Shown: in pieces, positions 20,825 to 48,000 of the stretch
How the letters are laid out: the number at the start of each line of letters is the position of its first letter
Position numbering within the stretch: the stretch's first letter is position 1
From: Haliotis asinina
Lineage: Eukaryota; Mollusca; Gastropoda; Lepetellida; Haliotidae
NCBI RefSeq assembly: GCF_037392515.1
Contig: NC_090283.1
Location: forward strand, 32,876,249 to 32,940,248
Direction of reading: 5' to 3'
Length of the DNA: 64,000 nucleotides
Notes under the pieces: model-generated
Told to the model about the DNA's origin: nothing
Database searches by the model: none
Seen by the model: the letters and a program-made list of their open reading frames with translations, nothing else
Program-made: the position numbers and the translations under genes

Positions 20825-23800
20825 ATGTCCATGCGTGATGTAGGTGAATCAGTGTGTGAAGTAAGTGATGCTTCCCATGTCATGTTCGGACCAAAGAACA
20901 CTCTCAACCACAGCCCATGTTCTATTGATGTGGAGTGTGCCGTTGAGTCACCAGATGCTTGCCCTGAATGTACAGTGGGTGAAAGCGCATCTTCAAACAA
21001 CACAGAGTGTATTGACTTGAAAGAGAGGTTTCAGGAAAACACTGAAACAGACGGTGCATGTTCTACACAGGAGTGTCATATTCCAGAAGAGAGTTTTGAT
21101 TTGGGAAGTGAGGCGACTACCTCTGGGCTTGATGATGAGGATGCAGATGAGGACGATCAAGCTAACACGACATCAGTGGTCATGGTTGGGTCGTCAAATA
21201 CCCTTAATGTCATGCTACCTGGAGGCAAAGTCCGAAGCTTCTACATGGAACGGAATACAAAGGTCAACATTAAGTACAACACTTCTGCAGAACCTTTAAC
21301 AGAACGTGAGTACATTGTAATCCAGTTATGGAATTATATTTCAGAATTTCATGAAAATTAAGGAACGGTACGATTGCTTGTGGATAAATATAGGATTTGT
21401 TATCAATAGAGCGCCATAACTTTTCTAAGTATGTAATAGTTTTCTGAAGCAAGTGTTTAATGGGATTACACCAAACCGAAGAAAGGAGCACCTAAGGAAA
21501 GCATCAATGACAGTTTTTCAATGTGTAAATTTCAGGCGTTCAAATATTCATGATGAACAAATATTTTCAAATCAGTAACACGTCCACACGCTCACGCATG
21601 TGATCTTTTGATTTTAAATTTCAGCGCACAAAGAGAAAGTCAGGATCACAATAGATATCGAAGGAAATCAATCAGCAATGGATGCCGTGTTTGCCAATTA
21701 CCACCGCCCTAGGACAGGACTCCAGCAAAACCTACACAACCTTTTTGATCGGTTAAACTACGCCATTGACTTGATAACACCAGGGTCCATTGTAATAGAG
21801 TTACGGCCAACAACGAGTAATTCTGTGCAAACACTGCTAGAATCAATTGAAAATGGACAGTTTGATAACATTGTCAAAGAACTATTAAGCGAAGAGTCTG
21901 TATTCAAGATGATTGCTGGTAAAGAGGTTACTGTTACTGTTGAACTGAGCATTCCAGAGGAGATGATCCAGAAGGCTGGGACATCCCTCATCGACCCGGC
22001 TCCTGTAGACTGTCGCGTACTGCCAGATGTGAACGTGAGCGTGCGAGAGGAGGGCACCGAGGATGATGACAGCAGCCACTCTTCATCGGTTGATCCTCCT
22101 GATCCACAAGAGGCTGAAGACGATCCATCCTCCAGTGTTGACCCAGAGTCAACAGGTAGAATTATCTTTTCACCATGATATTCATTTTGGGATGATTAAA
22201 CATCATCAGTTAAGATATTACGAGATTTATCATTTTGTTTTCCATTTTCTCTACTAATCCATAAGGGTAAAAATCTGACGCATTTAATTGTTACATGGAA
22301 TAATGGCATCTGTTCAGTTCAGTTTTTTCTCAATCTAGATTCCCAGGGTGGTGCAGACTTCAGAATGTCACGTTCAAGGTAAGAAAAACAATACACAAGT
22401 TCGAAAGTAAACAAATCTAGAAGTAGCAAATATCAATAATAAACATGGAATGATTCTTTTCACATTGTCATTAAAAATGGTGTTCAAAGTCAACGGTCTC
22501 TGTCAGGAATCAGTAACAAATCACTCAACTGTTCACTCCTCAATTTGATAATGCATCTAAACATTTGTCTTTCAGTCAAATTCATGGTAGACCACGAAGG
22601 CTGACTCTTTCTTCACTGAAGGGATTGCAGGACTGTGAACCATTAGTAATAATAACACATATCAATCAGGACGTAAAAGGTTTTAAAACTTTGCTCTGCA
22701 GAAAGGACCTGTCGCCAAAAGACTTCAAACTGATTGTGTCTAGTTTGAGTAAAGTAGTTCACTGTGAATCAATGCCAGAGTGGATCAATGACATACTTAG
22801 TAAAGTTGTTACTACCCCATTTTTTCGAACATCGTACGCAAATGTTCTGCCACGTATGGATCCAAATGACATAAGACGAGTGACTTTTGAGAGTTTTCCG
22901 ATCTTCAGAGAGATTTTGAAACGTATGCCATCTGACGGGTGGCCGGTTGTGGACACCCTTGCTCTACTGTCACGTGGCTTGATGGTAAGAAATGGCATAA
23001 AAGATGTTAATGTCATTAAATGTGCAGAGGAATTAGATGAACTTCTGCTGTTAACTAAACCAGAAACACTTGAAATGAATGCATCAACATCCAAGCAGGA
23101 CATGGATGAAGATGAAGAGTTTGGCACCCCTCCAGAAAGCTTCCGTGATCTTCCAGTCATCCCGAGAAAGGAGGAACTCGACGGAACTGAGGAGATCTTC
23201 CTTCTGCGCAATAAAGTGGGAACTAGATTCAAAGATCTGGAACACTATCTTGAATGCCAGTTCCGCCTCTTCAGAGCTGATGTCATTATGCCTCTGAAGA
23301 AAAACATTCAAGCATTCAAAAGGGCCGACACGGACACTTTTACAGACTATAGGACATATGTCGATGTACACATTTTGCGTCCTGTCTGTTCATCCAATGG
23401 TCTTTGCTATAGGCTTGCCTTTTCCACCACACATCTGAAAAGGGTCAAGTGGGAATCAAGTCAAAGATTGATCTATGGCTCCCTGCTGTGTTTGTCATCA
23501 GATAGATTCACTGACGATGTCCTCTTTGCAACTGTTGACAGTCGAGATCCTGAAAGTCTAAAACAGGGACTGGTTGATGTGAGGTTTCTGTCAGATGTAC
23601 CATATTCCGCATACAGATCAAGAGGTGTTTGCTTTGATATGGTAGAATCACCTGCATATTTTGAAGCTTATAAGGATGTTTTGATTTGTATGAAAGATCT
23701 GTCTGGAAGTACCCTGCCTTTCCAGGAATATATAGTACAATGTGTAAACATTGTGAAGGAACCTCTCTATTTGCAAGAACAAAAAGATGCTCTGTATGAT

Positions 23801-26800
23801 CTTCAACCCCTTTTAGATGAGGCGTTCAAAGTCTCCGACAGAAGGGAGAGAGACAACACTGAAACATCTTTGAAAAAATCAAAGTGTGCTCGAAATGTGA
23901 AGATTCAGGATAAAGGCTCTTGGCCTCAGATTGATGGATTAGATGCTTCCCAGTTAAAAGCATTACATAATGCTCTGACTAAAGAGTTTGCGTTGATACA
24001 GGGGCCTCCTGGAACCGGAAAAACCTACCTTGGCACACACATTTTGAAGACTCTTCTACATAACTCAGACGTCTGGCTTCGTGGGCAAAAACATCTACCT
24101 GTTCTTGTAGTATGTTACACCAATCATGCCCTGGACCAGTTTCTGGCAGGACTGTTGAAAGTTTTTGAGGGTAAACTTATTCGTGTCGGAGGGCGTTTCA
24201 CGACAGAACTGATGAAGAGACACTCTCTTAAATATGCCAGGGATGGAATAAAGAAACAGAAAGCAGTGCCATCTCATATCCATGAAGCGAAAATGGCCAT
24301 ATTAAGAAAGATGAAATCTTTGAAGAGGACAATTCATTTAAGTGCAGCTAAACTTGAGGTAGCCAAGCGAGAAATCCTTCACGAGAACTGTTTGAGAAGC
24401 TTCATGGACGAGAAGTTGAGAAGGCAATTTCCACAAGAGGATCTGTCACCAAGAGGGCCTATCATACTGAAGTGGCTTCGCATTGATGCTGATTTAGCCT
24501 TAACAGACAGGACCAGCGATCAGAGTTGCAGAACGGAAGATGACAGTGATGAGGAAGATAGTGGTGAAAAGGGGGTCAGTTTATCTGACTATGACTTGCC
24601 AAGAAACAGACACCAAATAGTTCAAGACTTACTACAAATATTAGATCTTGACTTCGACTTTGACACAGAAGACACCATGGATGAGAATGAACTACCTGAG
24701 ACAGAAGATCAAGTTACACAGAAATATGTAGCCTTCAATGTCACAAAACTAGGAGACGGCACGGTGTCTCGGTTTTACTCAGCACAAGAGAGAAGAAAGC
24801 AGGTGGAAACACTTCAAAAGAAAAGGAAACTTAAACAAAGTTTAATGGAGAAAATCACATCATTTGACTCAATGACAAGGGATGAAGAAACAAGTCTCAA
24901 CGACATATGGAAGCTACCGCACAAAGACAGGTGGCGTTTGTATCGGTTTTGGGTTGATCTATTTTGTGAACACGCGTGGGAAGAAATTACTCTGAAAGAA
25001 GAAGAATATGAAAACTGTTCTTTTCGATTCCAGGAAGTTTCGTTGCAAGGTGATAAACTCATATTAGCAGAGACTGACGTCATTGGAATGACCACAACAG
25101 CTGCGGCAAGGTATCAAAAAATACTGAATGAGATAGGACCCAGGATAATCATCATTGAAGAAGCCGCTGAAGTTCTAGAAGCCCATGTTATTGGTACTTT
25201 GAGTAAAGGGTGTGAACATCTCATACTGATTGGAGATCACAAGCAACTTAGACCCAACCCCACAGTGCATGAGCTTGCAAAAAAGTACAACCTTGAAATT
25301 TCATTGTTTGAAAGGATGGTAAAATCTGGTCTACACTGTGATACTTTAGAATGGCAGCACAGAATGCGGCCCGAGATAGCTGAAATTATTCGGCCTATAT
25401 ACCCACAGTTGAAGGACCACGATGTTGTGAAAGCATATGGCAACGTAAGGGGAGTAAGCAGAAATATCTACTTCATTGAACATCAACATCCACATTCCTT
25501 CGATGAGGAGACTAAAAGCTTTGAGAACTCTCATGAAGCAGAATACCTCGCTGGCCTCTGCAAGTACCTCTTAAAGCAAGGCTATCAAAACGAGCACATC
25601 ACCATTCTCTCCACTTACTCAGCGCAAATAGGTCGCCTCCGATTCGCATTGAAGAAGCAACAAATAACAGATGTGAGCGTTGTAGCAGTGGACAGTTATC
25701 AGGGAGAAGAAAATGACATAGTACTCTTGTCACTAGTAAGAAGTGGAAACAAAGGCTCTATAGGATTTCTGAAAGAAGAGAATCGTGTCTGTGTTGCATT
25801 GTCAAGGGCAAAGATTGGTCTTTATGTCATTGGCAACTTTACACACATTGCGGAACACAGTGACCTATGGAAGGAAATATGTAAAAAGGCAATGATTTGT
25901 GATTACCTTGGCCCTGCCTTGGTCCTGAGCTGTCAACGACACCCGGAAACGGCTTGCATTGAGGCTCTTGATCCAACAGACTTTGCAAGTGCTCCCGAAG
26001 GTGGATGTGAGAGACAGTGCGATTACCGACTACCATGTGGTCACGTTTGCACGAAGATGTGTCATTCAAATGACCCTCATCACATTGAATCGCCTTGTTT
26101 AAAACCATGTGGGAAAGTTTGCAAGAATGGGCATTCAGGCTGCAGTGAGCTTTGCTACAAACCATGCCCTCCATGTGAAGTTCCCGTGCAGGTGAAACTA
26201 CAAGCATGTGGACACACACAGGTGATTCCTTGTCATACTGATGCTGGACGGTACCAATGCCTTGAGCCTATCACTGTTACTAAACCATGTGGCCACTCTT
26301 CTTCTGTTGCCTGTGGAAGGAAGGATACTGAACCATGCAACTATCCCTGTAAGGTCCAACTGACTTGTGGCCATATATGCCAAGGCACATGCGGATCCTG
26401 TCACAGGGGGAGGCTACACCAGCCGTGTACTGCAAAATGCACAGAAATCCTAATATGTGGCCATGAATGTCTGTCAACATGCAACAGTTGTCCTCCATGT
26501 GAGACACCATGTGAGAATAGATGCAGTCACCGTACATGCACTTTAGCCTGTGGAGATCCGTGTGTTCCCTGTTCAAAACCCTGTGACATAGCATGTAGAC
26601 ATTCCAAATGCACGTCAACCTGTGGAGACATGTGCAAGAGGGAAAAGTGCAATGCCATATGTAGGAAGAAATTAAAATGTCGTCATCCTTGCATTGGACT
26701 TTGCGATGCCCCGTGTCCAAACGTATGCAAGGAATGCAACCCAGAAGAAATATCGAAAGCTCTGGAAGCCTTTGGAACCGAAATCTCAGGGAACAACAGG

Positions 26801-28100
26801 CTCATTCAACTGGAAGAGTGCTCTCACATATTTGACGTGAAAGCCATGGATAAATACATGGAAGGAGATTCGGGAGACGTCGAAAAAACTGTTGTGGAAC
26901 TTAAAAAATGCCCAATCTGCAAGACTCCCATTAGGCGGAACCAGCGTTATGTGAACATCATCAAAGGAACTCTTTCAGATATTGAAAAGGCCAAACTGAA
27001 GGTCAGAGAAAATGGACGAAGAGTGCGGGATTTGCAACAAATGATTTTGTCGATGCGAAACAGATTTCAAGGCTCAGACAGGGTAATCGTAGAACGATTG
27101 ACAACTACCAGTCTTTTTCCGTCGGAGGGTCACTTGTCGGCACAGGTCAGTCAGTTGCGAATCATGGAGAGAGTACTTGGCCTAGAGAAACTTGTAAGAT
27201 CAGATGCCGCCAAGAATAGCTCTCATCTGTATGAGCAACTTCTAAGAGCCATACATGCCTTCAAGGAATGGCTTCTAGTTCCAAGGTCTTGTTTTGGGAA
27301 GCAGGAGAGGCAGGATAGTGATGGCGAGATGAAACGACTATCTATGAGCCGATACCTCATTACAGCATCCCACTTGATTGACTCAGACAGGAAGGGTAGT
27401 AGTGCTGACATGAATATGCGGATTCACGATATGATTCAGCGCCTAGCCTCTTCGGAGACGCACGAATCAGTTCTGTCCGATGCCAAGGTACTGGTGGAAG
27501 AGGTCAAGGGCCATGTATCAGAATCCAAGATTGGAGCATGTGATGAAGAGAGGGTCGTGATTGTAGAAGCGATTGACATGAAACAGGGTCACTGGTACAA
27601 ATGCAAAGAAGGTCGGTATATTGTGTGTTTTGTATATTTGTACAACTTGTATAGAGCACATGTTCTTACTTTTCTTGTTTGTATTGGAGTATGTCTTATG
27701 ATGATGTTTACACATTGTCAGATGTCGTCTTTAGTGGACTGACTTTAGTAGATTCTAACTGAACAATGATAAAAACTAACCAAGTTTAAACTATCGAACA
27801 AGAGTGGACTACATTATTGGTTATTGTTGGTTACATTACTGTTGGTTACACTTGTGCAGACACCATAATGTATGGTTGTATTACCTTTACCCAGGCCATG
27901 TTTATGCCATGAGTGAGTGTGACAGACCTCACGAGGAGGTCACGTGTCCCGAGTGTGAATCATCTACAGGAGGGTCTGCCTGTGGAATAACAGAAGACAA
28001 TGTCTGGGCTCCGGATATAGACGATCCGGAGGACCCGCCGTGGTCTGATAAGAGAGACTATGAACTTGCATGGAAGCTACACGAGGAACTTAACGGATAA
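20825..28100 (+). CDS. ZNFX1: ZNFX1-like RNA helicase with RHIM-like and TRADD-N-like N-terminus (gene B)
   Basis: Five coding exons: 20825-21305, 21625-22155, 22339-22378, 22576-27611 and 27895-28100. All junctions are GT-AG and in phase, giving 2097 residues. Exon 1 has two related motifs, VMFGPKNTLN (19-28) and VMVGSSNTLNV (119-129), like the RHIM core. Exon 2 holds a TRADD-N-like domain (about 179-275; GSIVIELRP, ENGQFDNIVKELL, VTVTVELS). The giant exon has a helical region, then Walker A GPPGTGKT at 827-834, VVCYTNHALDQF, EEAAEV from 1212, GDHKQLRP, QGEEND from 1393 and ALSRAK. NFX1-type fingers span about 1495-1738. The RZ finger runs from GHWYKC (2022-2027) into the last exon (GHVYAMSEC..CPEC). 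One NFX1 finger present in gene C is missing here. It is closest to gene C. A role in antiviral RNA sensing is inferred from the family, and a death-type signalling output from the N-terminus. Confidence 0.92.
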
Positions 28101-28155
28101 GACGTTATTCGTTATGCGTAAGACGTTATTCGATTATCATATAGCTTCACATACT

Positions 28156-31100
28156 CACCTATACACTCAATAACGGACCCTACCACTTCTAATCTCATTG
28201 ACAACGCCTACCAATCACACTGTACTGACTAACAGGAATCATCACCTATACACTCAATAACGGACCCTACCACTTCTAATCTCATTGACAACGCCTACCA
28301 ATCACACTGTACTGACTAACAGGAATCATCACCTATACACTCAATAACGGACCCTACCACTTAGAATCTCATTGACAACGCCTACCAATCACACTGTACT
28401 GACTAACAGGAACCATCACATATACACTCAATAACGGACCCTACCACTTCTAATCTCATTGACAACGCCTACCAATCACACTGTACTGACTAACAGGAAC
28501 CATCACATATACACTCAATAACGGACCCTACCACTTCTAATCTCATTGACAACGCCTACCAATCACACTGTACTGACTAACAGGAACCATCACATGTACA
28601 CTCAATAACGGACCCTACCACTTCTAATCTCATTGACAACGCCTACCAATCACACTGTACTGACTAACAGGAACCATCACCTATACACTCAATAACGGAC
28701 CCTACCACTTCTAATCTCAATGACAACGCCTACAAATCACACTGTACTGACTAACAGGAACCATCACATATACACTCACTAACAGACCCTACCACTTCTA
28801 ATCTCATTGACAACGCCTACCAATCACACTGTACTGACTAACAGGAACCATCACCTACACACTCAATAACGGACCCTACCACTTCTAATCTCATTGACAA
28901 CGCCTACCAATCACACTGTACTGACTAACAGGAACCATCACCTATACACTCAATAACGGACCCTACCACTTCTAATCTCATTGACAACGCCTACCAATCA
29001 CACTGTACTGACTAACAGGAACCATCACATATACACTCAATAACGGACCCTACCACTTCTAATCTCATTGACAACGTCTACCAATCACACTGTACTGACT
29101 AACAGGAACCATCACATATACACTCAATAACGGACCCTACCACTTCTAATCTCATTGACAACGCCTACCAATCACACTGTACTGACTAACAGGAACCATC
29201 ACATATACACTCAATAACGGACCCTACCACTTCTGATCTCATTGACAACGCCTACCAATCACACTGTACTGACTAACAGGAACCATCACATATACACTCA
29301 ATAACGGACCCTACCACTTCTAATCTCATTGACAACGCCTACCAATCACACTGTACTGACTAACAGGAACCATCACCTATACACTCACTAACAGACCCTA
29401 CCACTTCTAATCTCATTGACAACGCCTACCAATCACACTGCACTGACTAACAGGAACCATCACCTATACACTCACTAACAGACCCTACCACTTCTAATCT
29501 CATTGACAACGCCTACCAATCACACTGTACTGACTAACAGGAACCATCACCTATACACTCACTAACAGACCCTACCACTTCTAATCTCATTGACAACGCC
29601 TGCCAATCACACTGTACTGACTAACAGGAACCATCACATATACACTCAATAACGGACCCTACCACTTCTAATCTCATTGACAACGCCTACCAATCACACT
29701 GTACTGACTAACAGGAACCATCACCTATACACTCAATAACAGACCCTACCACTTCTAATCTCATTGACAACGTCTACCAATCACACTGTACTGACTAACA
29801 GGAACCATCACATATACACTCAATAACGGACCCTACCACTTCTAATCTCATTGACAACGCCTACCAATCACACTGTACTGACTAACAGGAACCATCACCT
29901 ATACACTCAATAACGGACCCTACCACTTCTAATCTCATTGACAACGCCTACCAATCACACTGTACTGACTAACAGGAACCATCACATATACACTTAATAA
30001 CGGACCCTACCACTTCTAATCTCATTGACAACGTCTACCAATCACACTGTACTGACTAACAGGAACCATCACATATACACTCAATAACGGACCCTACCAC
30101 TTCTAATCTCATTGACAACGCCTACCAATCACACTGTACTGACTAACAGGAACCATCACATATACACTCAATAACGGACCCTACCACTTCTAATCTCATT
30201 GACAACGCCTACCAATCACACTGTACTGACTAACAGGAACCATCACATATACACTCAATAACGGACCCTACCGCTTCTAATCTCATTGACAACGCCTACC
30301 TATCACACTGTACTGACTAACAGGAACCATCACCTACACACTCACTAACAGACCCTACCACTTCTAATCTCATTGACAACGCCTACCAATCACACTGTAC
30401 TGACTAACAGGAACCATCACCTATACACTCACTATCAGACCCTACCACTTCTAATCTCATTGACAACGCCTACCAATCACACTGTACTGACTAACAGGAA
30501 CCATCACCTATACACTCAATAACGGACCCTACCACTTCTAATCTCATTGACAACGCCTACCAATCACACTGTACTGACTATGAGGAACCATAACATATAC
30601 ACTCAATAACGGACCCTACCACTTCTAATCTCATTGACAACGCCTACCAATCACACTGTACTGACTAACAGGAACCATCACATATACACTCAATAACGGA
30701 CCCTACCACTTCTAATCTCATTGACAACGCCTACCAATCACACTGTACTGACTAACAGGAACCATCACATATACACTCAATAACGGACCCTACCACTTCT
30801 AATCTTATTGACAACGCCTACCAATCACACTGTACTGACTAACAGGAATCATCACCTATACACTCACTAACAGACCCTACCACTTCTAGTCTCATTGACA
30901 ACGCCTACCAATCACACTGCACTGACTAACAGGAACCATCACCTATACACTCACTAACAGACCCTACCACTTCTAATCTCATTGACAACGTCTACCAATC
31001 ACACTGTACTGACTAACAGGAACCATCACCTATACACTCACTAACAGACCCTACCACTTCTAATCTCATTGACAACGCCTACCAATCACACTGTACTGAC

Positions 31101-34100
31101 TAACAGGAACCATCACCTACACATTCAATAACGGACCCTACCACTTCTAATCTCATTGACAACGCCTACCAATCACACTGTACTGACTAACAGGTACCAT
31201 CACATATACACTCAATAACGGACCCTACCACTTCTAATCTCATTGACAACGCCTACCAATCACACTGTACTGACTAACAGGAACCATCACATATACACTC
31301 AATAACGGACCCTACCACTTCTAATCTCATTGACAACGTCTACCAATCACACTGTACTGACTAACAGGAACCATCACCTACACACTCACTAACGGACCCT
31401 ACCACTTCTAATCTCATTGACAACGCCTACCAATCACACTGCACTGACTAACAGGAACCATCACATATACACTCACTAACAGACCCTACCACTTCTAATC
31501 TCATTGACAACGCCTACCAATCACACTGTACTGACTAACAGGAACCATCACCTATACACTCACTAACAGACCCTACCACTTCTAATCTCATTGACAACGC
31601 CTACCAATCACACTGTACTGACTAACAGGAACCATCACCTATACACTCAATAACGGACCCTACCACTTCTAATCTCATTGACAACGCCTACCAATCACAC
31701 TGTACTGACTAACAGGAACCATCACATATACACTCAATAACGGACCCTACCACTTCTAATCTCATTGACAACGCCTACCAATCACACTGTACTGACTAAG
31801 AGGAACCATCACATATACACTCAATAACGGACCCTACCACTTCTAATCTCATTGACAACGCCTACCTATCACACTGTACTGACTAACAGGAACCGTCACC
31901 TACACAATCACTAACAGACCTACCACTTCTAATCTCGTTGACAACGCCTACCAATCACACTGTACTGACTAACAGGAACCATCACCTATACACTCACTAT
32001 CAGACCCTACCACTTCTAATCTCATTGACAACGCCTACCAATCACACTGCACTGACTAACAGGAACCATCACCTACACACTCAATAACGGACCCTACCAC
32101 TTCTAATCTCATTGACAACGCCTACCAATCACACTGTACTGACTAACAGGAACCATCACCTATACACTCAATAACGGACCCTACCACTTCTAATCTCATT
32201 GACAACGTCTACCAATCACACTGTACTGACTAACAGGAACCATCACATATACACTCAATAACTGACCCTACCACTTCTAATCTCATTGACAACGTCTACC
32301 AATCACACTGTACTGACTAACAGGAACCATCACATATACACTCAATAACGGACCCTACCACTTCTAATCTCATTGACAACGCCTACCAATCACACTGTAC
32401 TGACTAACAGGAACCATCACATATACACTCAATAACGGACCCTACCACTTCTAATCTTATTGACAACGCCTACCAATCACACTGTACTGACTAACAGGAA
32501 CCATCACCTATACACTCACTAACAGACCCTACCACTTCTAATCTCATTGACAACGTCTACCAATCACACTGTACTGACTAACAGGAACCATCACCTATAC
32601 ACTCACTAACAGACCCTACCACTTCTAATCTCATTGACAACGCCTACCAATCACACTGCACTGACTAACAGGAACCATCACATATACACTCAATAACGGA
32701 CCCTACCACTTCTAATCTCATTGACAACGCCTACCAATCACACTGTACTGACTAACAGGAACCATCACATATACACTCAATAACGGACCCTACCACTTCT
32801 GATCTCATTGACAACGCCTACCAATCACACTGTACTGACTAACAGGAACCATCACATATACACTCAATAACGGACCCTACCACTTCCAATCTCATTGACA
32901 ACGCCTACCAATCACACTGTACTGACTAACAGGAACCATCACCTATACACTCACTAACAGACCCTACCACTTCTAATCTCATTGACAACGCCTACCAATC
33001 ACACTGTACTGACTAACAGGAACCATCACATATACACTCAATAACGGACCCTACCACTTCTAATCTCATTGACACCGCCTACCAATCACACTGTACTGAC
33101 TAACAGGAATCATCACATGTACACTCAATAACGGACCCTACCACTTCTAATCTCATTGACAACGCCTACCAATCACACTGTACTGACTAACAGGAACCAT
33201 CACCTACACACTCACTAACAGACCCTACCACTTCTAATCTCATTGACAACGTCTACCAATCACACTGTACTGACTAACAGGAACCATCACATATACACTC
33301 AATAACGGACCCTACCACTTCTAATCTCATTGACAACGCCTACCAATCACACTGTAGTGACTAACAGGAACCATCACCTATACACTCACTAACAGACCCT
33401 ACCACTTCTAATCTCATTGACAACGTCTACCAATCACACTGTACTGACTAACAGGAACCATCACCTATACACTCACTAACAGACCCTACCACTTCTAATC
33501 TCATTGACAACGCCTACCAATCACACTGCACTGACTAACAGGAACCATCACCTATACACTCACTAACAGACCCTACCACTTCTAATCTCATTGACAACGC
33601 CTACCAATCACACTGCACTGACTAACAGGAACCATCACATATACACTCAATAACGGACCCTACCACTTCTGATCTCATTGACAACGCCTACCAATCACAC
33701 TGTACTGACTAACAGGAACCATCACCTATACACTCACTAACAGACCCTACCACTTCTAATCTCATTGACAACGCCTACCAATCACACTGTACTGACTAAC
33801 AGGAACCATCACATATACACTCAATAACGGACCCTACCACTTCTAATCTCATTGACACCGCCTACCAATCACACTGTACTGACTAACAGGAACCATCACA
33901 TATACACTCAATAACGGACCCTACCACTTCTAATCTCATTGACAACGCCTACCAATCACACTGTACTGACTAACAGGAACCATCACATATACACTCACTA
34001 ACGGACCCTACCACTTCTAATCTCATTGACAACGCCTACCAATCACACTGTACTGACTAACAGGAACCATCACATATACACTCACTAACGGACCCTACCA

Positions 34101-36460
34101 CTTCTAATCTCATTGACAACGCCTACCAATCACACTGTACTGACTAACAGGAATCATCACATATACACTCAATAACGGACCCTACCACTTCTAATCTCAT
34201 TGACAACGCCTACCAATCACACTGTACTGACTAACAGGAACCATCACCTATACACTCACTAACAGACCCTACCACTTCTAATCTCATTGACAACGTCTAC
34301 CAATCACACTGTACTGACTAACAGGAACCATCACCTATACACTCACTAACAGACCCTACCACTTCTAATCTCATTGACAACGCCTACCAATCACACTGCA
34401 CTGACTAACAGGAACCATCACCTATACACTCACTAACAGACCCTACCACTTCTAATCTCATTGACAACGCCTACCAATCACACTGCACTGACTAACAGGA
34501 ACCATCACATATACACTCAATAACGGACCCTACCACTTCTGATCTCATTGACAACGCCTACCAATCACACTGTACTGACTAACAGGAACCATCACCTATA
34601 CACTCACTAACAGACCCTACCACTTCTAATCTCATTGACAACGCCTACCAATCACACTGTACTGACTAACAGGAACCATCACATATACACTCAATAACGG
34701 ACCCTACCACTTCTAATCTCATTGACACCGCCTACCAATCACACTGTACTGACTAACAGGAACCATCACATATACACTCAATAACGGACCCTACCACTTC
34801 TAATCTCATTGACAACGCCTACCAATCACACTGTACTGACTAACAGGAACCATCACATATACACTCACTAACGGACCCTACCACTTCTAATCTCATTGAC
34901 AACGCCTACCAATCACACTGTACTGACTAACAGGAACCATCACATATACACTCACTAACGGACCCTACCACTTCTAATCTCATTGACAACGCCTACCAAT
35001 CACACTGTACTGACTAACAGGAATCATCACATATACACTCAATAACGGACCCTACCACTTCTAATCTCATTGACAACGCCTACCAATCACACTGTACTGA
35101 CTAACAGGAACCATCACCTATACACTCACTAACAGACCCTACCACTTCTAATCTCATTGAGAACGTCTACCAATCACACTGTACTGACTAACAGGAACCA
35201 TCACATATACACTCAATAACGGACCCTACCACTTCCAATCTCACTGACAACGCCTACCAATCACACTGTACTGACTAACAGGAACCATCACATATACACT
35301 CAATAACGGACCCTACCACTTCTAATCTCATTGACAACGCCTACCAATCACACTGTACTGACTAACAGGAACCATCACATATACACTCAATAACGGACCC
35401 TACCACTTCTAATCTCATTGACAACGCCTACCAATCACACTGTACTGACTAACAGGAACCATCACATATACACTCACTAACGGACCCTACCACTTCTAAT
35501 CTCATTGACAACGCCTACCAATCACACTGTACTGACTAACAGGAATCATCACATATACACTCAATAACGGACCCTACCACTTCTAATCTCATTGACAACG
35601 CCTACCAATCACACTGTACTGACTAACAGGAACCATCACCTATACACTCACTAACAGACCCTACCACTTCTAATCTCATTGAGAACGTCTACCAATCACA
35701 CTGTACTGACTAACAGGAACCATCACATATACACTCAATAACGGACCCTACCACTTCCAATCTCACTGACAACGCCTACCAATCACACTGTACTGACTAA
35801 CAGGAACCATCACATATACACTCAATAACGGACCCTACCACTTCTAATCTCATTGACAACGTCTACCAATCACACTGTACTGACTAACAGGAACCATCAC
35901 ATATACACTCAATAACGGACCCTACCACTTCTAATCTCATTGACAACGCCTACCAATCACACTGTACTGACTAACAGGAACCATCACATATACACTCACT
36001 AACGGACCCTACCACTTCTAATCTCATTGACAACGCCTACCAATCACACTGTACTGACTAACAGGAACCATCACATATACACTCACTAACGGACCCTACC
36101 ACTTCTAATCTCATTGACAACGCCTACCAATCACACTGTACTGACTAACAGGAATCATCACATATACACTCAATAACGGACCCTACCACTTCTAATCTCA
36201 TTGACAACGCCTACCAATCACACTGTACTGACTAACAGGAACCATCACCTATACACTCACTAACAGACCCTACCACTTCTAATCTCATTGACAACGTCTA
36301 CCAATCACACTGTACTGACTAACAGGAACCATCACATATACACTCAATAACGGACCCTACCACTTCTAATCTCACTGACAACGCCTACCAATCACACTGT
36401 ACTGACTAACAGGAACCATCACATATACACTCAATAACGGACCCTACCACTTCTAATCTC
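28156..36460. repeat. 87-bp minisatellite, about 95 copies
   Basis: Head-to-tail units of 87 bp over 8.3 kb, each with CCCTACCACTTCTAATCTCA, TTGACAACGCCTACCAATCA and CACTGTACTGACTAACAGGA. Two main sequence types alternate, ATATACACTCAATAACGG and CTATACACTCACTAACAG, with rarer single-base markers. Although 87 is divisible by three, every frame is closed by stops, so it is not a coding repeat. It begins about 55 bp after the stop codon of gene B. It is not a CRISPR array: there are no unique spacers. Confidence 0.97.
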
Positions 36461-36685
36461 ACACACAACACAACACGGACCAATTACGCACCACAGTGCC
36501 TAACAGGCCTCACTAAATACACACTCACTAGCAAACCGTGCCACCCCTACTCTCACACACAGCACCTGCCAACCACACACCACATTGACTAAGAGGCCTC
36601 ATTACCTACACATTCAATATCAGACCCTACCACCTTTACTCTTACTGACAACACCTACCAATCACACACTACACTGACATAACTT
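36461..36685. repeat. Decayed edge of the 87-bp minisatellite
   Basis: About two and a half strongly diverged units follow the array, still showing ACACTCACTAGCAAACCGTG, CATTCAATATCAGACCCTAC and TGACAACACCTACCAATCAC. They differ far more from each other than array units do, as expected at an edge that no longer homogenises. Confidence 0.8.
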
Positions 36686-45000: not shown

Positions 45001-48000
45001 GCTATACCAACCATGCATTGGATCAGTTCTTAGAAGGGATTTTGAAGTTTTTCAAAGGTAGACTCATTCGTGTTGGTGCTCGAAGTAAGAGTGAAACCAT
45101 GCAAGAATATTCCTTGAGGAATGCAAGGCAGAGAGTGAGAGATCTTAGATCCCTGCCTGTGGCTGTTCATTCAGGGAAAATGGAGACGTTAAGAGCAATG
45201 AATAGCCTGAAAGCAGAAATACATACCACGGCAGCCAAACTTGAAGTGGCAGAGAGAGAAATTTTACATGAGCGTTGTTTGAAAGACTTTATGACCGAAA
45301 CCATAGCAAGCTGCTTCACTGTTGGGAATGACTATGAAACATGCCAGATAGCTACTTGGTTAGGGATCAAGAAGCGACTGTTTGATATTGAAGAGACAGG
45401 TGAACACGTACTGGAAGAGCGAAAGTTGGCAGATGAAGAGGAGGAAGAAGAGTATGAAGAAGAAGAGATGATTGATATTGAAGTACATCAGAGTCAGAGA
45501 AGGCTAGAGGAAGACTTGTTTGACTCGGATGATGAATATGCTGATGATGATGTACTTAGCAAAGCACAATCATTAGATGCTGATATACAGCATGTTCGCA
45601 AGGAATGCATAGGGTTAAACATAAGCAACCTTGATGCTTCAACAGTTACAATGTTTATGTCACCACAAATGAAGAAAATCCATGAGGACAAACAGAGGCA
45701 GAAGAGATCCCTGAAAGTCAGTCTCATTAAGAAACTGCGATCAACTGACAGAATGACTTCACGTGAAGCTGAGAACGTGCGTAACATCTGGAGACTGCGC
45801 ATAAAAGACAGGTGGAGGTTGTACAGATATTGGGTGGATGTACTTTGTCGACAGGCCAAAGGTGAAATTAGAGACAAAGAAGGTGATTACAGGCGTCTGA
45901 CTAAGCAATACAAAGAGGTCTTAATGCAAGAGGACAGAACTATCCTTCAGAACTGCTCCATTATAGGGATGACAACAACAGGTGCAGCAAGATATCAGAG
46001 GGTTCTGAACGAAATTGGTCCCAAGATTATTCTTGTAGAAGAAGCAGCCGAAGTACTTGAGGCTCATGTTATAGGAACTCTCAGTCGGAGATGTCAACAT
46101 CTTATTCTCATAGGTGATCACTTACAGCTGTTCATGAGCTTGCCAAGAGGTACAACTTGGAAATATCCCTGTTTGAGAGAATGGTGAACTCTGGTATTCC
46201 ACATGATACGCTTCTTTGGCAACACAGAATGCGCCCTGAAATAGCGGACGTTGTACGGCCACTCTATAAAGATCTGAAAGATGACAAGTGTGTTAAGACG
46301 TATGACAATGTGAAGGGTATTGCACACAATGTGTACTTCATCGAACATCAACACCCACATGAATATGATGAAGAGACAAAAAGCTTTTTGAATGAATATG
46401 AAGCTCAATATCTAATAGGTCTTTGCAAATACCTCTTAAAGCAAGGTTATCATGCGGAGCAAATTACAATATTGACAACATATTCCGCCCAAATGCATTG
46501 CTTAAAGAATAGGATGCCAAAAGCACAGTTTGAAGGAGTGAGGGTTGTTTCTGTTGACAGCTATCAAGGAGAAGAGAATGATATTGTACTTCTGTCACTT
46601 GTCCGCAGTGGAGATGAAACGAAAATTGGGTTCTTGAAAGAAAGCAACAGGGTATGTGTTGCACTGTCAAGGGCTAAGAAAGGACTATATGTTATTGGAA
46701 ATTTCAATCACATCACTACATACAGTCCACTGCTAAAGGACATTGCTGCAAATGCATCTGCAAGAGGATGCTTCGGCCCTGCACTGCCTCTGTCGTGTCA
46801 AAATCACCCGGATGATATGGGAGTTGCCGTAAATCATCCAAGTGATTTTGAAAGAGTCCCCGAAGGAGGCTGTACGAAACCATGTCTTTTCCGACTTTCA
46901 TGTGGTCATGTGTGTCCACGAGTTTGTCACGTGATAGATGCAGAACACAAATCCATCATCTGTTCAAAGAAATGTAAACGACAATGCCAGAAATGTAAGA
47001 GTTACCACTGTGATCTCCCTTGTTACAAGCCATGCAGACCCTGTCCTGTACTCGTACAGAAAACCCTACCCAGGTGTGGTCACGCCCAAATGATTCCTTG
47101 TGAAGAGGACGAGGGGAACTATCAATGTCAGGAAACTTGTAAAGAGCGTCTGCCATGTGGCCATGAATGCCAGGGCAAATGTGGACAGCCTCATCCGCCA
47201 TGTGCCATACCTGTAGAAGTCTCCAAGCCATGTGGTCATACCATAGCTGTTGCATGCAAAGATCGAGACACAGCTGCCTGCAATCATGAGTGTGGTGAAA
47301 CTCTCAGCTGTGGTGACCCATGCATGGGTACGTGTGGTACATGCCACCAAGGGCGTCTGCATCAGCCTTGTCCTTCGGAATGTAAGCGAATTCTCATATG
47401 TGGACACGAATGTCAGTCGTCTTGCAGTAACTGTCCACCGTGTACCAGGAGGTGCGAGAACAGATGCAACCACAGCAAATGTCCTAGGAAATGTGGAGAT
47501 CCTTGTGCTTCCTGTAAGGAGCCATGTCAGTGGAAGTGTCGCCACTTCAAATGCAACATGCCGTGTGGGGATGAGTGTGACAGACCCCGATGCAATGACT
47601 GGTGCAGGAATAAACTACCATGTGGTCATTACTGCATTGGCATTTGTGGAGAGCCATGTCCAAAGCTGTGCCGAGATTGTGACAAGGAGAAGATGCCTGA
47701 TGTGTTCCTCGGTAGGGAAGATGAGCCAAAGGCCAGATTTATTGAACTGGAAGATTGCAAACACATTTTTGAAGTCAGAGATTTGGACTTGTTCATGGAC
47801 GGACCAAGTGAAGACGAGGACAAGACACTAGTCAAACTGAAGGAATGTCCTAGATGCCTCACACCAATCAGAAGGAATCTCAGATATGGCAACGTCATTA
47901 AGCAGGCACTGGCATGTATAGAGAAAGCAAAGAGGAAGGTTATTGGCGATAACAAGAATGTGAAGGAACTCAGAGACTCCATGGACAGGATGAAAAATAG

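Follow-up and report, generated by a model that had tools for sequence, protein, structure and literature searches.

A ZNFX1 helicase gene of abalones with an N-terminal module of RHIM-like motifs and a TRADD-N-like domain, and a second carrier of that module

Gene B, the subject of this report, lies in a 64,000-nucleotide stretch of the genome of the abalone Haliotis asinina (contig NC_090283.1, positions 32,876,249 to 32,940,248 of the forward strand). We refer to this whole stretch as 'the window'; within the 1.14 Gb assembly it sits on the contig that we label C4. Gene B encodes a ZNFX1 helicase preceded by a module comprising two RHIM-like motifs and a TRADD-N-like domain. This fusion is present in the gene models of two abalone species, and one paralogous module elsewhere in the genome is fused to a hydrophobic, Gly-rich protein, the product of what we term the C9 gene. 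We propose, at a probability of roughly 45%, that gene B combines RNA-sensing ZNFX1 with a homotypic module that would signal to a membrane protein, whose clustering would give the output. Below, we describe the gene and its module, the second carrier, the proposed mechanism with its alternatives, and the known systems that it resembles.

Gene B and its upstream exons

Gene B, annotated as ZNFX1, occupies window positions 20825-28100 on the + strand (as do all features located below), and consists of five exons recognized by GT-AG splice sites and reading frame. Exon 1 (20825..21305), which opens with an ATG start and ends at the donor gtgagt, encodes residues 1-160 and the first base of codon 161; its junction with exon 2 is of phase 1. 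It holds the two RHIM-like motifs, with an acidic linker between them. Exon 2 (21625..22155; acceptor ttcag, donor gtagaa) encodes residues 161-337, and holds the TRADD-N-like domain followed by an acidic linker. Exon 3 (22339..22378), placed by frame and splice sites, is a linker, and is identical to its counterpart in the copy described below. Exon 4 (22576..27611) encodes the ZNFX1 domain, an SF1 helicase (GPPGTGKT), and Cys-rich NFX1-type zinc fingers, the fingers being called from the sequence and the NCBI name. Exon 5 (27895..28100), placed by frame, supplies the C-terminal end, the stop codon and, probably, an RZ-type zinc finger. The NCBI protein for gene B, P0001, has a precomputed match to PF20173, which we take to be the RZ-type finger and to lie in this exon. 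In Pfam scans, the ZNFX1 domain (PF25396; E-value (E) 3.8e-29, 101 bits) and the helicase models AAA_12 (E 3.5e-39, 135 bits) and AAA_11 (E 1.4e-28, 101 bits) all match above their cut-offs. Gene B possesses both the domain and the AAA_11/AAA_12 helicase, and the NCBI name agrees: it is ZNFX1.

The first-pass annotation, made from the window's letters, had described two upstream exons in gene B that its neighbors, genes A and C, lack. When the 337 residues of exons 1 and 2 are searched against the window by tblastn, nothing comparable appears at either neighbor; the other matches are one of E 0.014, within the gene A coding region, and one of E 7.4. The spliced model is 100% identical over the searched residues, 1-340, to P0001, the 2097-residue 'NFX1-type zinc finger-containing protein 1-like [Haliotis asinina]' of NCBI. 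The same fusion is annotated in Haliotis rufescens as the predicted 2113-residue protein P0002, which is 57% identical to gene B over 98% of residues 1-340, and 71% identical overall. In two species, then, the gene predictions include exons 1 and 2. The splice and frame model, P0001 and P0002 lead us to reject the idea that these exons are a separate gene or a misreading.

The genome contains a near-identical copy of the gene B region on contig C17 (2818000-2837800; 97.7% over 16.7 kb), which could represent either the alternative haplotype or a recently duplicated segment. It is this copy that NCBI has annotated, and it differs from the window copy at six residues, all outside 1-340. Exons 1-3 are identical in the two, and the remaining coding sequence has four synonymous and six non-synonymous codon differences. 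Introns 1, 3 and 4 do not differ either, which makes the sameness of exons 1 and 2 uninformative about selection.

The module and its second carrier

Both strings that the first-pass annotation had likened to RHIM cores are present in exon 1. Motif 1, VMFGPKNTLN (residues 19-28, 20879..20908; IMVGTMNTIN in H. rufescens), is weakly RHIM-like; motif 2, VMVGSSNTLNV (residues 119-129, 21179..21211), is VMFGNSNTLNI in H. rufescens. A DNA pattern for these M-containing motifs, run on the window, finds exactly these two. We scored 11-mers with BLOSUM62 against the two RHIM cores, of RIPK1 and RIPK3, quoted in that annotation, using 44,765 11-mers as background. Motif 2 is the most RIPK-RHIM-like 11-mer of the gene B protein (22.0; next, 13.5), and its score is reached by 2 of the background 11-mers: itself, and a motif of the C9 gene. 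No other 11-mer of the H. rufescens protein scores as high as its two motifs, yet both are weaker than H. asinina motif 2; its motif 1 (IMVGTMNTINY) is equalled by 14 of the 44,765. When the 337 residues are shuffled 100,000 times, the pattern [IV]x[IVF]GxxNx[LM]x[IVLM] turns up in 34 shuffles and a doubled [IVL]x[IVLF]GxxN, which is looser, in 67, frequencies that understate chance because the patterns were picked after the motif had been seen. M-G-x-x-N-T-x-N is kept in both motifs of both species, with the linker between them largely divergent. The sequences support the term 'RHIM-like' for these motifs; membership in RHIM is not established. Elsewhere in the genome, the Pfam RHIM model picks out two exons with canonical-looking RHIM cores: L185 (1495-1821), with VQIGSDGKMII (21.8 bits against a 20-bit cut-off, genome E 0.28), and L188 (1420-1719), with IQIGNFNRMFV (18.6 bits, under the cut-off, genome E 3.05).

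In exon 2, the elements that had suggested a TRADD N-terminal domain, GSIVIELRP, the short helix ENGQFDNIVKELL and VTVTVELS, are all present. The TRADD-N-like domain spans approximately residues 165-272 (21636..21959), as judged from alignment to bacterial TRADD-like_N domains by hhalign and from model secondary structure. A profile of nine abalone domains (gene B and the C9 family) aligns to the bacterial TRADD-like_N alignment with a probability of 56% and P 1.1e-4, a value matched by none of 300 column-shuffled decoys (best, 1.2e-3). The bacterial set comprised 32 TRADD-like_N loci, a subset of the matches listed in two surveys (2 of 5 genomes, and 40 of 148). Gly-Ser falls on Gly-Ser in this register, followed by an aligned G-x-L/F-x-E/N. 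In gene B this pair is Gly214-Ser215 (21783..21788), and it is invariant in 9/9 aligned abalone domains. Divided, the profile gives P 0.0014 for gene B alone and P 0.0065 for the C9 family alone; with DEDD2 added, the probability is 44.9%. Of 844 H. asinina open reading frames, a number in which overlapping loci are counted repeatedly, exon 2 scores highest with the bacterial hidden Markov model (HMM); full-length gene B scores 5.7 bits. Gly-Ser is strongly conserved in TRADD-N domains and, in TRADD itself, contacts the MATH domain of TRAF2 (PMC8195603). Exon 2 is, we think, probably a divergent TRADD-N domain; 'TRADD-N-like' is supported by these alignments, and membership in TRADD-N is not established.

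NCBIfam yields a single match (12.8 bits where the cut-off is 180; E 0.1), and sequence searches of PDB nothing convincing (best, the chloroplast ATP synthase delta chain, E 0.025). Comparison with the genome's NCOA6-type locus gives P 0.73. The low-confidence model of the domain has the order strand-helix-helix-strand-helix-helix-strand, one strand fewer than the RRM-like beta-alpha-beta-beta-alpha-beta, and in it no strand precedes the Gly-Ser, which in the TRADD-N superfamily lies in the beta2-beta3 turn. The genome also has, on contig C1 (L001/L003/L004), an abalone gene in which a DED-like exon lies upstream of a TRADD-like_N exon (PF20694, 53 bits); we presume it to be of the DEDD2 type, the DED and DEDD2 labels not coming from a profile.

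Searched in six frames with the 337 residues, the assembly yields the module at two gene loci: gene B, in its C4 and C17 copies (E 1.6e-108), and the C9 gene (E 3.5e-7, 30% identity over the exon-2 domain). In the reverse search, only the C9 gene (E 4.7e-8) and gene B fall below E 1; three more rows, L030 and L031 among them, lie at E 6.5-8.9. All candidates were scored (8/8 and 7/7). The C9 gene model is the NCBI 'uncharacterized protein' P0003 of H. asinina, 405 residues long. It has six further relatives, three in Haliotis rubra, two in H. rufescens and one in Haliotis cracherodii, which makes a family of seven proteins, 'uncharacterized' in four Haliotis species. These 7, all from Haliotis, emerged at E up to 10 from 8000 scored candidates; no relative of the module was found outside the genus in protein searches over a limited length range that relied on shared exact five-residue words.

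Five of the seven predictions start with an exon that bears two RHIM-like motifs, and in all five motif 1 retains Q: IQAGNNNRMVV, IQAGNNNKMLV, IQAGNNNKTVV, IQVGMDNKMTV (H. rufescens) and AQVGSGNEMII. The tetrad is IQVG in P0006, IQAG in P0003-P0005 and AQVG in P0008, and motif 1 is the top RIPK-RHIM-like 11-mer of each of these five proteins. The intron between exons 1 and 2 is of phase 1 in the C9 gene, as in gene B, and GS and IPE are invariant across the gene B and C9-family domains. Beyond the domain, the C9 proteins have a Gly-rich hydrophobic stretch flanked by charged regions, with 19-residue hydropathy maxima of 2.08-2.57 in 7/7. This hydropathy suggests that the C9 gene encodes a membrane protein; that the protein forms pores is a guess. 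One member, P0007, approaches the Apolipoprotein L model (ApoL, PF05461; 24.3 bits, just short of the 25.9 cut-off; E 2.5e-5). Of the 27 ApoL matches in the genome, 22 exceed the cut-off, 3 of these only when neighbors in frame are counted in, and several are clustered on contigs C7, C8 and C10.

A number of results weigh against the interpretation of this module as RHIM plus TRADD-N, and of the C9 protein as its membrane-acting partner. Motif 1 of gene B scores 11.5, and is equalled by 67 of the 44,765 background 11-mers; 8 do as well as VMFGNSNTLNI, motif 2 of H. rufescens. The core tetrad V/I-Q-V/I-G appears as VMFG and VMVG in gene B, and as IMVG and VMFG in H. rufescens, M replacing Q in four of four motifs. 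Q belongs to the conserved RHIM tetrad (PMC12119088, in its available text). The same text documents plasticity at the other tetrad positions. When five natural variants were introduced into human RIPK3, TQIG and VQSG lost NF-kB activation and the others had it reduced; all five retained cell death, and none of the variants described there replaces the Q (PMC12119088). The matches to Pfam RHIM and TRADD_N models that the original calls led one to look for do not appear: the gene B N-terminus has none to RHIM (PF12721), and none to TRADD_N (PF09034), TRADD-like_N (PF20694) or NCOA6_TRADD-N (PF13820) in scans up to E 10, in which HMMER filters discard most weak matches. A scan of motif peptides from eight proteins returns 0 families, and a genome-wide RHIM profile search with 11 matches includes neither gene B nor the C9 gene.

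As for exon 2, the bacterial HMM gives it 9.1 bits, a score reached by 5 of 5000 shuffles. Its match to the abalone DEDD2-type TRADD-N is weak, with 720 of 5000 shuffles as good in H. asinina, 59 of 5000 for the H. rufescens domain, and P 0.07 by hhalign. The predicted fold is of very low confidence (mean predicted local distance difference test (pLDDT) score, 32). In the C9 family, P0007 and P0009 have other or shorter predicted starts and no RHIM-like exon; motif 2 is poorly kept (LQMG, LQMG, RQMG, RQTG and EQKE); and none of the seven proteins matches the Pfam RHIM or TRADD-N models. The gene B motif-2 region and C9-family exon 1 align with an hhalign probability of 11% (P 0.0029). ApoL is below cut-off in one of the seven and absent from six, and the C9 gene is not among the 27 genome matches to that model.

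The interpretation in the first-pass annotation is thus partly supported. Both resemblances that it drew survive, chiefly because the C9 gene carries the same module with the Q that gene B lacks.

Two further features of the window are recorded here. An 87-bp satellite (28155-36461; ~95.5 copies, 96% match, very strong strand skew) begins ~55 bases past the gene B stop codon. In gene C, the helicase frame shifts at 46118-46187 between overlapping open reading frames, one ending at 46187 and the next starting at 46118. The change falls in a conserved helicase region, and could reflect an intron, an indel in the assembly or a copy that is broken.

Proposed mechanism and alternatives

We suggest that abalones fused a homotypic signalling module, made up of the two RHIM-like motifs and the TRADD-N-like domain, onto the ZNFX1 helicase. 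ZNFX1 has been proposed to bind long double-stranded RNA and to signal via MAVS (the available part of a review, PMC11959080). In gene B, binding of viral RNA would cluster the helicase and bring the N-terminal modules together, and the clustered motifs and domain would in turn act on the C9 membrane protein, nucleating or recruiting it by its matching N-terminus. The C9 protein would be the natural partner because it is the only other protein found with the module, and it has a hydrophobic segment. Once clustered at a membrane, it would produce the output, which is likeliest to be the formation of pores together with death of the cell or damage to organelles. The difference between M in gene B and Q in the C9 protein may set the direction of signalling, or make gene B a brake. 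Every step past the presence of the same module on two proteins, including amyloid, interaction and a death output, is one that we infer. A stricter version, in which a ZNFX1 sensor and a membrane-disrupting protein form a two-gene amyloid death circuit against RNA viruses, with no kinase and independent of ZBP1-RIPK-MLKL, strikes us as possible rather than probable.

Three other explanations compete with this mechanism. The module might be a TRADD-N-like adaptor and nothing else, the RHIM-like strings serving as linkers or as short beta docking peptides that form no amyloid, and the helicase signalling by domain binding to a TRAF/MATH-type or other partner. The M for Q in gene B, the weakness of motif 1 and the missing Pfam RHIM match all favor this, as does the fact that the clear homology between gene B and the C9 family lies in the domain, with its invariant GS and IPE; TRADD-N binds the TRAF2 MATH domain through the conserved Ser (PMC8195603). 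It sits poorly with the retention of M-G-xx-N-T-x-N in both copies and both species despite a divergent linker, and with C9-family motif 1, which is close to a textbook RHIM core. On balance, we consider it unlikely, if the strongest of the competitors. The contrast of M in four of four gene B motifs with Q in five of five C9-family motifs 1 invites another proposal: that the gene B module is a decoy or brake, which caps or poisons C9 assemblies and restrains death until RNA is bound. Vertebrate ZNFX1 is reported to inhibit NLRP3 (PMC11959080, available part), and the output of RIPK3 is tuned by tetrad variants (PMC12119088, available text). The substitution alone, however, cannot separate a seed from a cap, and from the sequences we would rate a brake as distinctly improbable.

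Exon 2 might, lastly, encode a lineage-specific alpha/beta domain of no relation to TRADD-N, with motifs that arose by coincidence, the module acting in localization or in docking to a small-RNA pathway. This accords with the lack of a curated family match and the low model confidence, and the N-terminus of Caenorhabditis elegans ZNFX1 binds LOTR1 (PMC11959080, available part). Against it stand the alignment to TRADD-like_N, GS on GS, at a P of 1.1e-4 that 0/300 decoys equalled, and the fact that two separate genes each combine RHIM-like motifs with the domain; we give it little credence.

Known systems and significance

Fusions of TRADD-N to helicases (DDX60, Mov10 and RLR-like) are known in cnidarians and brachiopods (Kaur et al. 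2021, PMC8195603), and TRADD-N is expanded in sessile or aggregating marine invertebrates (PMC8195603, in the part available). Gene B resembles the DEDD2-clade fusions in uniting, in a marine invertebrate, a TRADD-N-type domain with an RNA-handling enzyme in one chain, and in its Gly-Ser. It differs in partner, which is ZNFX1 instead of DDX60, Mov10, RLR-like or Piwi proteins, and in companions, the domain usually standing alongside a DED in that clade and alongside RHIM-like motifs in gene B (PMC8195603). The molluscan expansions named in the available text are bivalve, whereas gene B is gastropod; ZNFX1 and RHIM each have 0 mentions in the available main text, the supplementary architecture lists being outside this count (PMC8195603). 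Human ZNFX1 shares the ZNFX1 domain, SF1 helicase and zinc fingers with gene B. It is described as an ARM-type fold, helicase, zinc fingers, coiled coil and RZ finger, without such an N-terminal module (PMC11959080, available part).

The mechanism that we favor, RNA sensing coupled to a membrane protein through a shared module, also recalls fungal pairs of NLR and HeLo proteins with PP (RHIM-like) amyloids, in which matching motifs on a sensor and a membrane-active protein are the plan of signalling (PMC12881547, available part). The fungal examples there have NLR sensors and are gene-clustered, whereas the abalone genes lie on different contigs (PMC12881547). The C9 family resembles Apolipoprotein L in its Gly-rich hydrophobic segment between charged regions, and in the one member of seven near the cut-off; six lack an ApoL match, and the family has the RHIM-like/TRADD-N-like N-terminus. 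With the ZBP1-RIPK3/RIPK1-MLKL pathway, the parallel is a nucleic-acid sensor with RHIM-like motifs and a candidate membrane-acting partner. Neither abalone gene encodes a kinase, the sensor has M for Q, and the membrane protein bears the motif itself.

No ZNFX1-RHIM or ZNFX1-TRADD fusion was found in the literature searched, nor any report combining RHIM with TRADD-N, with apolipoprotein L or with Haliotis, or ZNFX1 with Haliotis; one source treats ZNFX1 and TRADD apart (PMC9334734, available part). Fusion of TRADD-N to a helicase is thus already published; the fusion to ZNFX1, and the C9 gene as carrier of the module, are new as far as we have searched. If the proposal is true, a single chain would tie a conserved animal RNA sensor straight to homotypic, death-type signalling, and with a likely partner in the same genome, the idea could be tested with two proteins. 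TRADD-N/helicase fusions would extend to ZNFX1, and gastropods would have RHIM-type signalling by a route without the sensors and kinases of vertebrates.

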